Positions 41,437 through 45,658 of a stretch of 45,658 bases of DNA are shown here, piece by piece. How positions within the stretch are numbered: the stretch's first letter is position 1; every line of letters begins with the position of its first letter. A program made the translations under genes and the position numbers. A model generated the notes under the pieces. That model saw only the letters and a program-made list of their open reading frames with translations, was not told where the DNA came from and did not search any database. Source of the stretch: an uncultured Acidimicrobiales bacterium (GTDB taxonomy: Bacteria; Actinomycetota; Acidimicrobiia; Acidimicrobiales; SZUA-35); assembly GCA_937958015.1 (NCBI GenBank), contig CALGOA010000008.1:1-45658 (forward strand), written 5' to 3'.

Positions 41437-42057
41437 CTAGTCCGGCCATGCGTCACGGAGCCGGTCGTAACTCTGGCTGAGGGTCTGGGGCAGGATTCGC
41501 ACCTCGGCCGTCGTGGTCATGAAGTTCGTATCCGCCCGCCAGCGGGGAACGATGTGTACGTGCAGGTGATCCGGCTGGGACCCTCCCCCGGCCAGACCCT
41601 CGTTGACGCCGATGTTCAGACCGTGGGGGAAGAATGCCGCCTTTACCGCGGCCGATGCGGTCCGCACCGTCTCCCATAGTTCGGCGTGGACGTCGTCGGG
41701 AAGGTCGTGGATCGACGGCCGGGCCTGCTTTGGGATCACCATGATGTGACCGCTGGTGTACGGGTACACATTGAGCACGGTGAAGACGGTGTGGCCCCGA
41801 TGGAGAACGTAGGTTTCCTCGTCGGGAAGGTCGCTCTGCTCGATCGTCTCGAACAGGGTCTTTCCCTCGGCCGCCTTCACATACGGGTGGGGTTGGCCGT
41901 CCGATGCCATGCCGCGTGGATGGGCCAACCGCCAGCCGCTGAACAGCCGCGGCATCCCACCCTCGTTGCGCTGGTATTCCATTCCTCCACTCGCCTCCGG
42001 CCTGGCGGCCTCCGGGTCGTTTCGGTCTCGCTCCGCTCGATCAAGTGACTCACTCAT
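41437..42057 (-). CDS. HIT-family hydrolase/phosphorylase (Ap4A phosphorylase-like)
   Basis: 206 aa, ATG 42057. The HIT triad is DHLHVHIVPRW, preceded by NVYPYTSGHIMVIPK and NIGVNEGLAGGG. In mycobacteria the gene between thrS and pgsA1 encodes an Ap4A phosphorylase of this family, so an Ap4A-cleaving role is likely. The first about 45 residues are extra and unstructured; an internal Met at 26 or 35 could be the true start. 36 nt after thrS. Confidence 0.9.
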   Translation of the reverse strand: MSESLDRAERDRNDPEAARPEASGGMEYQRNEGGMPRLFSGWRLAHPRGMASDGQPHPYVKAAEGKTLFETIEQSDLPDEETYVLHRGHTVFTVLNVYPYTSGHIMVIPKQARPSIHDLPDDVHAELWETVRTASAAVKAAFFPHGLNIGVNEGLAGGGSQPDHLHVHIVPRWRADTNFMTTTAEVRILPQTLSQSYDRLRDAWPD

Positions 42058-42093
42058 CCTTAGCTGCTCCGTCCCTCCGCAACCGAAGGCGGT

Positions 42094-44070
42094 CTAGGCC
42101 GGAGCCTGGCCGGGGACGATGGTTTCGTCGGTCAGCCGTTGAATGAACTCGTCGATCGGGACGCCACGTTCCACCTCGCCGCCGCGGGGGTTGTCGCCAA
42201 CCGTCGAGGCCGCGACATCATCGTCGCCGACCACCAGAACGTGGGGGGTCTTGGAGATCTTGGCGTTCCTGATGCGTTTGCCGAGCGGGTCCGAACTGGC
42301 CAACAGTTCGGCTCGGAAACCTTCTGCGGTCAGTCGAGCCGCGATCGACTCGGCGTACTCGCGATGGGCATCGGCAACCGGAAGCACCTGAACCTGAACC
42401 GGTGCCAGCCAGGTTGGGAAGTTGCCGGCGTAGTGCTCGACCAGCACACCAAAGAACCGCTCGATGCTCCCGAGCAGCGCGCGATGCAACATGATCGGAC
42501 GGCGTCGTTCCCCATCGTGGTCGACATACTCGAGTTCGAACCGGTCAGGGAGCTGGAAGTCGGCCTGAATGGTGGACAGCTGCCAGCTCCGACCGATCGC
42601 ATCGCGAACATCGATGTCGATCTTGGGGCCGTAGAAGGCGGCGTCGCCCTCCTTGATGGCGTATTCGAGACCGTGGGACTCCAATGCCTTCTGCAGGGCG
42701 TCGGTGGCGATGTCCCAGATGTCATCGGAGCCCACGTACTTCTCGGGATCCTTGGTCGACAGGTTGAACGTGAAGTCTTCGAACCCGAAGGCCCGCAGGA
42801 TGCTGAGCACGAAGTCGAGCAGACCGGCGATCTCCTCCATCAACTGGTCCTGGGTGCAGAAGATGTGGCTGTCGTCCTGGGTAAACCCACGAATCCGAAG
42901 CAGACCGTGAAGGGTGCCGGCTCGTTCGTACCGATAAACGGTGCCCAGCTCGAACAGACGAAGCGGTAGTTCGCGGTAACTTTTCTGCCCACCGCTGAAG
43001 ATCAGGCAGTGCATTGGGCAGTTCATCGGCTTCATGTAGTAGGTGCCGTTGTCCATCTCCATCGGCGGATACATGCCATCGGCGTAGAAGTCGAGGTGGC
43101 CGGAGGTCTCGAACAGTTTCCCGTTCGCCAGATGGGGGGTGTAGACGAATTCGTACCCGCCCGCCTGGTGGCGTTCGCGGCTGTAGTCCTCGATCAACTT
43201 GCGGACGATTGCGCCCTTCGGGTGCCAGACCGCCAGCCCGCCTCCCAATTGCGACGGGAAGCTGAGCAGATCCATCTCGGTGGCAAGTTTGCGATGATCA
43301 CGTTTGGCGGCCTCCTCCAGGTTGTGGAGGTGCTGTTTGAGTGCCTTCTTCGAGTCCCATGCGGTGCCGTAGATCCGCTGGAGCATCGGTTCGTCCTCGC
43401 GACCCCGCCAGTACGCGCCGGACACCCGCTGCAGTGCGAAGTGACCCAGATGGCCCGTATGGGGAACGTGGGGGCCGACACACATGTCGACGAACTCGTC
43501 GGTGTTTCGGTAGAAGCTGATGACCTCACCCGACACCTCCGTGCTGAGATCGTTGCCCGAGGCGGCCGTGCCGTCAGCGCCGGTGACCGAGCGGATGATG
43601 GCCTGTTTATACGGGTGGCCATCCATCAGTTCGAGCGCATCGGCCGGAGCCATCTCGGAACGAACGAACGGTTGACGGGCCGAGATGATCGAACGCATCT
43701 CGGCGTCGATTCGTTCGAGATCTCCGTCGGAGAACGTGCCGTTGTCGGGCAGCGAGAAGTCGTAGTAGAACCCGTTCTCGATCGCCGGACCGATGGCGAA
43801 GGTGGCGCCCGGCCACAGTTTCAGAACGGCCTGAGCCAGGACGTGGGCGGTGGAGTGCCGGATGGTGTGCAGGCCACGCTCGGACGACGGCGTGACGATC
43901 TCGATCTCGGCCCCGTCGTGCAGGCTGGTGGTCAGGTCGGTTTCGACACCATCGACCACGGCGATGAGTGCGTCCTTCGCCAAACGAGGACCAATGTCGG
44001 CGGCCACGTCGGCCGTAGTTGCTCCATCGGCCATCTCGCGGGAGGAGCCATCGGGAAGTCGAACCTGCAT
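42094..44070 (-). CDS. thrS: Threonyl-tRNA synthetase
   Basis: 658 aa, ATG 44070. The TGS domain (1-62), the editing domain (HSTAHVLAQAVLKLWPG, and MCVGPHVPHTGHLGHF), the class II catalytic core (MKPMNCPMHCLIF with the zinc Cys, RYERAGTLHGLLRIRGFTQDD as motif 2), and the anticodon-binding domain (about 560-650, VQVLPVADAHREYA). No obvious T-box upstream within the 60 nt before the hairpin repeat. Head of a long minus-strand run. Confidence 0.98.
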   Translation of the reverse strand: MQVRLPDGSSREMADGATTADVAADIGPRLAKDALIAVVDGVETDLTTSLHDGAEIEIVTPSSERGLHTIRHSTAHVLAQAVLKLWPGATFAIGPAIENGFYYDFSLPDNGTFSDGDLERIDAEMRSIISARQPFVRSEMAPADALELMDGHPYKQAIIRSVTGADGTAASGNDLSTEVSGEVISFYRNTDEFVDMCVGPHVPHTGHLGHFALQRVSGAYWRGREDEPMLQRIYGTAWDSKKALKQHLHNLEEAAKRDHRKLATEMDLLSFPSQLGGGLAVWHPKGAIVRKLIEDYSRERHQAGGYEFVYTPHLANGKLFETSGHLDFYADGMYPPMEMDNGTYYMKPMNCPMHCLIFSGGQKSYRELPLRLFELGTVYRYERAGTLHGLLRIRGFTQDDSHIFCTQDQLMEEIAGLLDFVLSILRAFGFEDFTFNLSTKDPEKYVGSDDIWDIATDALQKALESHGLEYAIKEGDAAFYGPKIDIDVRDAIGRSWQLSTIQADFQLPDRFELEYVDHDGERRRPIMLHRALLGSIERFFGVLVEHYAGNFPTWLAPVQVQVLPVADAHREYAESIAARLTAEGFRAELLASSDPLGKRIRNAKISKTPHVLVVGDDDVAASTVGDNPRGGEVERGVPIDEFIQRLTDETIVPGQAPA

Positions 44071-44128
44071 CGGCCCATTGTGCCCGATCCACCCACCCGA
44101 TCTGGCCCATTTCTAGGGTGTTCCCCAC

Positions 44129-44175
44129 GTCTGGCACGAGAAACTTCCACTACGCGGGAACTTCTCCAGCCAGAC
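44129..44175. repeat. Hairpin repeat A flanking the AbiEi/DUF559 gene
   Basis: GTCTGGC (44129-44135) pairs with GCCAGAC (44169-44175) and GAGAA (44138-44142) with TTCTC (44162-44166). The 33-nt core 44134-44166 (GCACGAGAAAC ... GAACTTCTC) matches 45233-45265 at 27 of 33 positions with identical spacing. Lies between the thrS start and the AbiEi/DUF559 stop. Confidence 0.8.
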
Positions 44176-44178
44176 CCG

Positions 44179-45111
44179 CTACTGGGAACTCTGAAGGAAC
44201 GGCTTCAGCGTCGCGACAACCGAGTCTCCTCGCTGAGTGATGTCCCAGTAGGTGAACCGGAACACGCGCCAACCCGCCGTGACGAGCACATTTTGCCTAT
44301 TCAGGTCGCTCTGCAACTGCGACGCAGTGCTGTGCGCCAGCATCGAATCGCATTCCACCACGACACGATGATCGGGCCACGCGAAGTCGACGAAGAAGAC
44401 GCGACCCGCACACTCGATACGGAACTGTGCTTGGGGCGGCGGCAGACCACCGGCTCGCCACAGTCCACTCGCCTTCCGTTCGTAGCTGTTCTGAGGGCGA
44501 ATCGTGTCTGGCGCGCGGATCTCGGCGGCCAACAACTCGCGGAGATCACGCGAGCAACCTCTACCCGGCCGAGCGATCTCGGCCATCCGTGTGGCGACAT
44601 CGTCTGCAACAAACAGGCCGGACTGCTGACCCCGTGCTAACACATCGCCGATCTGATGGCGGTCGAGGCCGGACTCCGCATCGATGACGGCCCGAATCGG
44701 ACTGGCGACGCGGAGCCCCCTCACCGAGGAGACATCGACAGCGCGAAGGCTTGAGTCCACCCTTGACCTGATGTGTTTGGACGTTGATGCGCTCCCGCGG
44801 CTTCCGACGACTTCGACCCGCCCCCGCGATCCGTGAGGTAGGTCCCACAACTCGAGGGCGGTTCGGCCCCCGATGATCTGGCCGCTCGTCATGACCTTGC
44901 CAGCGAGACACAATGCCTCCTCAAATCCGATCGGACCGGACTCGGTTCTGAAGACCCCTCGTTGAAACCGCACGAGATACCCACGTGAACACCAGCGGGA
45001 CACGGTCGAACTGGGAATGCCTAGTCGATGAAGCTCTTCGGACGTGATGAAACCTTCGGACTTCCTTGCTGCGTGCAGCACAAGCTGGAAACGCTCTATC
45101 GCACCGGCCAC
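44179..45111 (-). CDS. AbiEi-like winged-helix / DUF559 nuclease-fold protein
   Basis: 310 aa from GTG 45111. N-terminal part (about 1-95): GFITSEELHRLGIPSSTVSRWCSRGYLVRFQRGVFR, the winged-helix seen in AbiEi type IV antitoxins and related proteins. C-terminal part (about 205-305) is DUF559, related to very-short-patch-repair (Vsr) endonucleases: NSYERKASGLW, FFVDFAWPDHRVVVECDS (PD-(D/E)XK-like Asp...Glu-x-Asp) and GWRVFRFTYWDI. Such two-part proteins are common in actinobacteria; none has a proven role I know of. No AbiEii toxin neighbours it. It is bracketed by two related hairpin repeats. Confidence 0.85.
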   Translation of the reverse strand: MAGAIERFQLVLHAARKSEGFITSEELHRLGIPSSTVSRWCSRGYLVRFQRGVFRTESGPIGFEEALCLAGKVMTSGQIIGGRTALELWDLPHGSRGRVEVVGSRGSASTSKHIRSRVDSSLRAVDVSSVRGLRVASPIRAVIDAESGLDRHQIGDVLARGQQSGLFVADDVATRMAEIARPGRGCSRDLRELLAAEIRAPDTIRPQNSYERKASGLWRAGGLPPPQAQFRIECAGRVFFVDFAWPDHRVVVECDSMLAHSTASQLQSDLNRQNVLVTAGWRVFRFTYWDITQRGDSVVATLKPFLQSSQ

Positions 45112-45229
45112 GCCAAACCTCCACAGTCACGATCGTCGATGTGTGCGCGGAGCGATTGCGGCTCGAGTGCCAAAGAGGCGAGTTTCGGATCCTAACGAGC
45201 TACAGATCCCACGCCCACAGATGTGGCGA

Positions 45230-45272
45230 CTCGCACGAGAAACGACCGCTGCGTGAGAACTTCTCGTGCGAG
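45230..45272. repeat. Hairpin repeat B flanking the AbiEi/DUF559 gene
   Basis: A perfect 12-bp inverted repeat, CTCGCACGAGAA (45230-45241) and TTCTCGTGCGAG (45261-45272), with a 19-nt loop. Its core 45233-45265 is the second copy of repeat A in the same orientation. It lies 8 nt downstream of the plsC-like stop (minus strand), so it could also serve as that gene's terminator, though no T-run follows. The rest of the gap (45112-45229) shows nothing I recognise. Confidence 0.8.
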
Positions 45273-45280
45273 AGGGTGGG

Positions 45281-45658
45281 TTAGACGCCGATGAGGGGTT
45301 TTGACTGGAGGACGTCGGCGCTGGATCGACGTTCGATGAGAGGTTCGGTGGATGGTTCCGGGACCGGTTCTGCGGCGGTGGCGGCTTTGGCTCCGGCGTA
45401 GGTGTGTTCGTATTCGAGGCCACACAACGCCTGAATTTCGTACATCAGCTCGTCGGTCAACTGGCGGTAGACCGCTCGGTCTCCCTTGCGGTCGGCATAG
45501 TGAGCAACCTCGATCGGCGTGCCGAATCGAACCGTCGCCTTCATGAACGGGGTCGGGAACTTCTTGTCGGGCGGTTGGATCTCGCGGGTGCCCACGAGGC
45601 CAACCGGGATCAGGGGCGAACCCGTCTCGACCGCTAGTCGGGCCGCTCCGGTGTGGCC
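45281..45658 (-). CDS. plsC: 1-acyl-glycerol-3-phosphate acyltransferase-like protein, C-terminal part (N-terminus beyond window)
   Basis: The frame runs in from the right edge and ends at TAA 45281. The visible 125 residues include HTGAARLAVETGSPLIPVGLVG followed by TREIQPPDKKFPTPF and VRFGTPIEV, the conserved C-terminal half of PlsC acyltransferases (substrate loop region; the HX4D motif would lie upstream outside the window). The C-terminal tail of about 45 residues is Ala/Pro/Glu-rich. It acylates lysophosphatidic acid or a related lysolipid. Repeat B lies just after its stop. Confidence 0.85.
   Translation of the reverse strand, partial: GHTGAARLAVETGSPLIPVGLVGTREIQPPDKKFPTPFMKATVRFGTPIEVAHYADRKGDRAVYRQLTDELMYEIQALCGLEYEHTYAGAKAATAAEPVPEPSTEPLIERRSSADVLQSKPLIGV

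Follow-up and report, generated by a model that had tools for sequence, protein, structure and literature searches.

A gene for a predicted nuclease is paired with matching flanking repeats at many loci, with repeats that are mostly private to each locus and a tight geometry; cognate repeats are dispersed in three genomes, and in the stretch of 45,658 nucleotides analyzed here (referred to as the window) the hairpins and the gene between them are an insertion. In the REPtron, the gene for the transposase TnpA_REP/RAYT lies between copies of its own imperfect palindrome, and this palindrome is also dispersed between genes (PMC3733652, PMC8266576). We lean, by a modest margin, toward reading the unit of hairpin, ~115 nt, nuclease gene, and hairpin as a small selfish element that is REPtron-like but has an unrelated enzyme; its binding, cutting, copying, and function are all inferred. 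The window holds the following features.

44128 to 44174, no strand assigned: hairpin repeat of type B, starting 4 nt past the stop codon of the nuclease gene
44179 to 45111, minus strand: nuclease gene, 310 amino acids, AbiEi_4 winged helix (N-terminal) and DUF559/EDxHD-type nuclease domain (C-terminal), GTG start as listed
45112 to 45226, minus strand: upstream region of the nuclease gene, 115 nt, from the start codon to the upstream hairpin
45227 to 45273, no strand assigned: type B hairpin repeat on the upstream side of the nuclease gene, with the plsC-like stop (45281) 7 nt away

The hairpin cores (44134-44166 and 45233-45265) match at 27 of 33 positions, with 6 differences, lie on the same strand at a spacing of 1099, and enclose one gene only, the AbiEi_4 plus DUF559 gene at 44179-45111 on the minus strand; across 47 nt the two copies are 77% identical. 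A 29-nt pattern of the letters common to both hairpins had exactly two matches in the window when ≤3 mismatches were allowed, and two matches were obtained in 0 of 100 window shuffles. Folded as single-stranded DNA, the hairpins had energies of -11.8 kcal/mol (z, -4.68) and -15.0 kcal/mol (z, -3.55). The similarity of the cores, their common spacing and orientation, their ability to fold, and the single enclosed gene had all been predicted from the sequence alone, and all were confirmed. Known structured RNAs were ruled out as the identity of the hairpins, because an Rfam search of positions 42000-45658 gave no match at an E value of ≤1. Possible roles for the repeat include target, boundary, and binding site, none of which has been shown.

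The genes that we take to be thrS, plsC, and cysS (names from the earlier finding and from reading translations, without a family search) are found in the order thrS-plsC-cysS in four of four congeners (G001 to G004). The spacer between thrS and plsC is short in all four and contains neither the nuclease gene nor the hairpin, and a search of the four genomes with the hairpin model gave no match at E ≤ 0.01. Because thrS and plsC are adjacent in every congener, without gene or hairpin, the hairpin-gene-hairpin unit is an insertion in the window. Thus, the insertion between thrS and the plsC-like gene that had been claimed in the original prediction held; an empty site retaining one repeat had also been envisaged, but the four empty sites carry no hairpin.

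Another contig of the same assembly (C21) is 98% identical to the window over 394 nt at the end of plsC. Past this end, C21 carries a hairpin of another type (type A) and the beginning of a gene, of which only 11 codons are visible; these encode MSGIIDRFETV and can be aligned with MAGAIERFQLV of the window protein. C21 probably represents another haplotype in which a different allele of the element occupies the same position, and the likely cause is a related strain mixed into the assembly. The near-identical plsC ends were seen in L069:1-600 (contig C21) and at 45265-45658 of the window, with the other hairpin and gene start behind. As a separate observation, the gene downstream of thrS opens with a stretch of ~75 nt (window 42009-42085) that is repeated widely in the genome of the window (G000) and in G002, G003, and G004.

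The Pfam domains of the 310-amino-acid protein are AbiEi_4 (PF13338, residues 10-55) and DUF559 (PF04480, residues 233-303). An AlphaFold2 model of the protein had a mean pLDDT of 87.3 and a pTM of 0.64. In Foldseek comparisons, its N-terminal winged-helix part resembled the AbiEi antitoxin (PDB 6y8q; E, 9e-7), and its C-terminal domain resembled the catalytic domain of I-Bth0305I (PDB 3r3p; probability, 1.00; E, 2.4e-3), with a TM-score of 0.73 by target length. D242, E253, D255, H260, D269, and R272 were invariant in 13 aligned proteins; we take the invariant D, E, and H residues to be the EDxHD family motif. DUF559 was matched by 10 of these 13 members and REase_MTES_1575 (PF18741) by 12; AbiEi_4 was also found, and there was no match to Y1_Tnp among their Pfam families. 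The model predicts an AbiEi-type winged helix joined to an I-Bth0305I-like nuclease; the original prediction was of an antitoxin-type winged helix with a Vsr-like nuclease fold. The protein is probably DNA cutting, although cutting is inferred and there is no biochemical evidence for it.

Each of these relatives differs from the window gene in other respects. I-Bth0305I (EDxHD) shares the catalytic-domain fold and the invariant D, E, and H residues, but the window gene is free-standing, encodes an AbiEi-type DNA-binding domain, and has a palindrome on each side, and no intron or intein was seen. The AbiE toxin-antitoxin system shares the N-terminal winged-helix part, an AbiEi-type DNA-binding domain, whereas the window protein has a C-terminal nuclease and its gene is not adjoined by an AbiEii toxin gene, the neighbors being thrS-like and plsC-like. 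DUF559 and REase_MTES_1575, to which most aligned members belong by the matches given above, have no described function or flanking repeats in the open-access literature searched.

A protein search of 61 genomes of the order detected homologues in 43. The 79 loci used, window included, came mainly from the better-scoring end of the homologue list and were not a random draw; L122, with only 31 nt of downstream sequence, was left out of the flank test, so that 78 remained. In this test, the 350 nt upstream were compared with the 350 nt downstream, and a locus was considered bracketed if its flanks matched better than with any of 60 shuffled versions of the downstream one. Matching repeats bracketed 53 of the 78 loci, window included, and 25 were not bracketed, compared with 0 of 77 control genes (240 to 420 codons, from sixteen stretches of eight of the same genomes). 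The flanks of the control genes were, however, more often coding than those of the homologues. In a second control, in which the flanks of different homologous loci were paired, 20 of 38 loci beat all 76 pairings in direct orientation. Eight of nine homologues in the genome of the window were bracketed (C8, C123, C121, C130, C146, C49, C99, and C209); C132 was not bracketed by the flank test.

The geometry of the 53 pairs, 34 direct and 19 inverted, was tight. The downstream copy began a median of 5 nt past the stop codon (interquartile range, 1 to 11), and the upstream copy ended a median of 102 nt before the start (interquartile range, 74 to 135); 41 of the 53 upstream copies folded with z ≤ -2. 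In the phylum at large, a homologue match was detected in 25 genomes of a sample of 80, and 13 of 29 loci were bracketed and 16 were not. Two of the 29 had already been counted: C132 (not bracketed) and one locus of G030 (bracketed). Homologues of Salsipaludibacter albus and of a Nitriliruptorales MAG were bracketed too, as was a DUF559 protein encoded on a Tsukamurella tyrosinosolvens plasmid (WP_068740572.1); the plasmid search with the protein returned 2 records only. The bracketing arrangement is widespread, not universal. The expectation that homologues would generally be flanked by the same hairpin therefore held only in part: many have a matching pair, the sequence of which is mostly locus specific.

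The repeats were mostly unrelated between loci, even where the proteins were 60 to 70% identical. Codivergence of protein and hairpin was considered and found to be weak, with the observed link between protein and hairpin similarity reached in 12 of 500 permutations and most repeats dissimilar even at that level of protein identity. Among the sequences examined, further matches of a repeat were mostly in the same genome, with few elsewhere, some of which may be coding matches. Full dispersal searches were restricted to three repeat families: that of G000, L144 in G012, and L150 in G026. The L144 unit, which is composed of left half-sites and right half-sites, each often present twice, occurred in at least 41 distinct places in G012, two of which are its own flanks and 39 of which are further copies; this is a lower bound, as only 40 candidates were scored. 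It was not present at six other homologous loci fetched from G012. The L150 repeat was found in 17 distinct places in G026, its own two flanks and 15 others. A rough ORF caller placed 29 of 30 G012 copies and 13 of 19 G026 rows outside genes, with 6 of the 19 G026 rows inside a predicted gene. Among 25 dispersed G012 copies that could be assigned, 13 were between convergent genes and 9 were between tandem genes.

In G000, a covariance model built from eight copies of the window hairpin family gave 38 matches at E ≤ 1 when both strands were counted, which correspond to 21 places, 18 of them at E ≤ 0.01. Three arm types (A, B, and C) have a common core and differ through compensatory changes in the stem: 20 cells were altered on both sides in the alignment of 8 copies, versus 9.9 in shuffles, and 110 versus 52.0 in a fitted alignment of 40 rows, which counts most places on both strands. 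Most of the hairpin places in G000 have no homologue of the nuclease gene beside them. The hairpin model matched only 4 of the 61 genomes (G000, G038, G060, and G006). By eye only, a similar inner core, approximately CCGCTSAGCGGG, was seen inside unrelated arms at L070, L073, and L074 (G038) and at L278 (the Tsukamurella plasmid).

Hairpins of the window family also closely bracket a single methyltransferase-like gene in C54 (L060:3673-4463) and a single hydrolase-like gene in C92 (L061:2728-3710), names that were assigned from reading translations. These arrangements look as though genes other than the nuclease gene can be carried by the repeats. A terminator reading of the hairpins was rejected: neither window copy has a T-run following it, and one hairpin pair, in C54, lies between divergent gene starts. 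A general terminator beside many unrelated genes would have refuted the original prediction; this condition holds only insofar as copies adjoin unrelated genes.

One alternative is that the palindromes are operators to which the AbiEi-type domain binds, with the upstream one serving in autoregulation and without any mobility; the remaining copies, downstream and dispersed, would be additional binding sites or terminators. AbiEi antitoxins bind inverted repeats in their own promoters, and in favor of this explanation are the location of the upstream copy in the promoter region at most loci and the resemblance of the N-terminal domain to AbiEi 6y8q. However, the downstream copy is placed behind the stop codon with the same regularity as the upstream copy ahead of the start, and the dispersed G012 copies are mostly between convergent or tandem genes, where operators are unexpected. 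Furthermore, unrelated repeats at 60 to 70% protein identity and interspersed copy numbers favor spread. Thus, it seems unlikely that the repeats are operators alone.

A second alternative is that the repeats spread by other means and that the nuclease gene behaves as a homing-type cassette. The gene would enter existing repeats via recombination and thereby come to lie between two repeat copies, much as some insertion sequences target REPs. This possibility is consistent with the resemblance of the C-terminal domain to the catalytic domain of the homing endonuclease I-Bth0305I, with known insertion sequences within REPs, such as ISPpu9 (PMC8450116), and with the two haplotypes that have different hairpins and apparently different alleles at the same point. 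Against it, where one genome holds several homologues, each is paired with a repeat of its own and the abundant repeat is not shared (G012; cross-locus comparison), the empty site of the four congeners has no hairpin, and a double-strand homing nuclease would face ~40 further targets in G012. We consider the homing reading improbable, if somewhat less so than the operator reading, but both may still be entertained beside the REPtron-like reading.

The unit has two features of the REPtron: each side of the enzyme gene carries a copy of the palindrome that belongs to it (the 53 loci above), and this palindrome is also dispersed in intergenic space (G000, G012, and G026). The REP/RAYT-like logic proposed in the original prediction is supported by both. 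The enzyme differs, being an AbiEi-DUF559 fusion rather than a Y1 HUH transposase, and the palindromes do not have the GTAG or CGTC tag. GTAG was rarer in the 53 upstream repeats than in shuffles (11 versus 24.2), and CGTC was not enriched (29 versus 33.0), so membership among GTAG/CGTC REPs was rejected. Because the enzyme is not Y1 HUH and the GTAG tag is absent, the unit is not a REPtron by descent. TTCTG/CAGAA was the first among several enriched 5-mers (19 of 53 upstream repeats versus 5.6 expected); by eye, it is often at the foot of the stem. As for integron attC cassettes, the repeats here mostly differ between loci, which by itself counts against fixed core boxes at the hairpin ends.

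It could also be argued that a Y1 HUH transposase (RAYT) of the host makes ordinary REPs and that the nuclease gene is a bystander. A Y1_Tnp match was indeed detected in 8 of 15 genomes searched, including G000 and G012. However, none was found in the other seven (G004, G006, G021, G026, G036, G037, and G038), and G026, which is a single contig and 99% complete, nevertheless has its repeat at 17 places. No significant R1 hairpin was near the Y1 gene of G000 (best E, 0.19), and no copy of the L144 unit was near the two Y1 genes of G012. The tag counts given above also argue against this explanation, and a bystander gene would not be expected between matching private pairs at fixed distances. 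Thus, it is very unlikely that Y1 transposases account for the arrangement. The flanks of one Y1_Tnp gene (L276; G012:C12:207800-211100) match each other in inverted orientation over 25 nt, and this gene might be a true RAYT unit alongside the nuclease units.

In the REPtron-like reading that we prefer, the AbiEi-type winged helix would recognize the element's own imperfect palindrome, and the DUF559 domain, with its I-Bth0305I homing nuclease fold, would nick or cut it. The substrate would probably be an extruded or single-stranded palindrome, because an enzyme that simply cut double-stranded DNA would cleave the genome in which it resides wherever a dispersed copy lies. The repeat, and occasionally the gene with both repeats, may then be copied by repair or replication into new intergenic places; this route of insertion is inferred. 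Neither a target-site duplication nor a circular or excised form of the proposed element was found, and biochemical evidence for it is lacking.

In the open-access literature searched, outside which most subscription journals fall, no paper linking DUF559 to flanking palindromes was found, nor was any that had DUF559 in its title or abstract or that mentioned Vsr together with repetitive extragenic palindromic sequences. A bolder reading, which we consider slightly more likely to be wrong than right, is that these units belong to a class of palindromic repeats in Actinomycetota that has not been described before and that spreads itself by means of a family of AbiEi-EDxHD fusion nucleases rather than Y1 HUH enzymes, each nuclease being paired with its own fast-changing hairpin. 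If so, they would be a second, independent solution of the REP/RAYT type and would offer a candidate sort of enzyme for REP families without a known transposase. DUF559 is without a described function, and the bracketing offers a testable role and substrate for each member. If the nuclease acts on its own hairpins, its activity would account for a class of repeats interspersed in the genomes of Actinomycetota and would provide many natural enzyme-target pairs.
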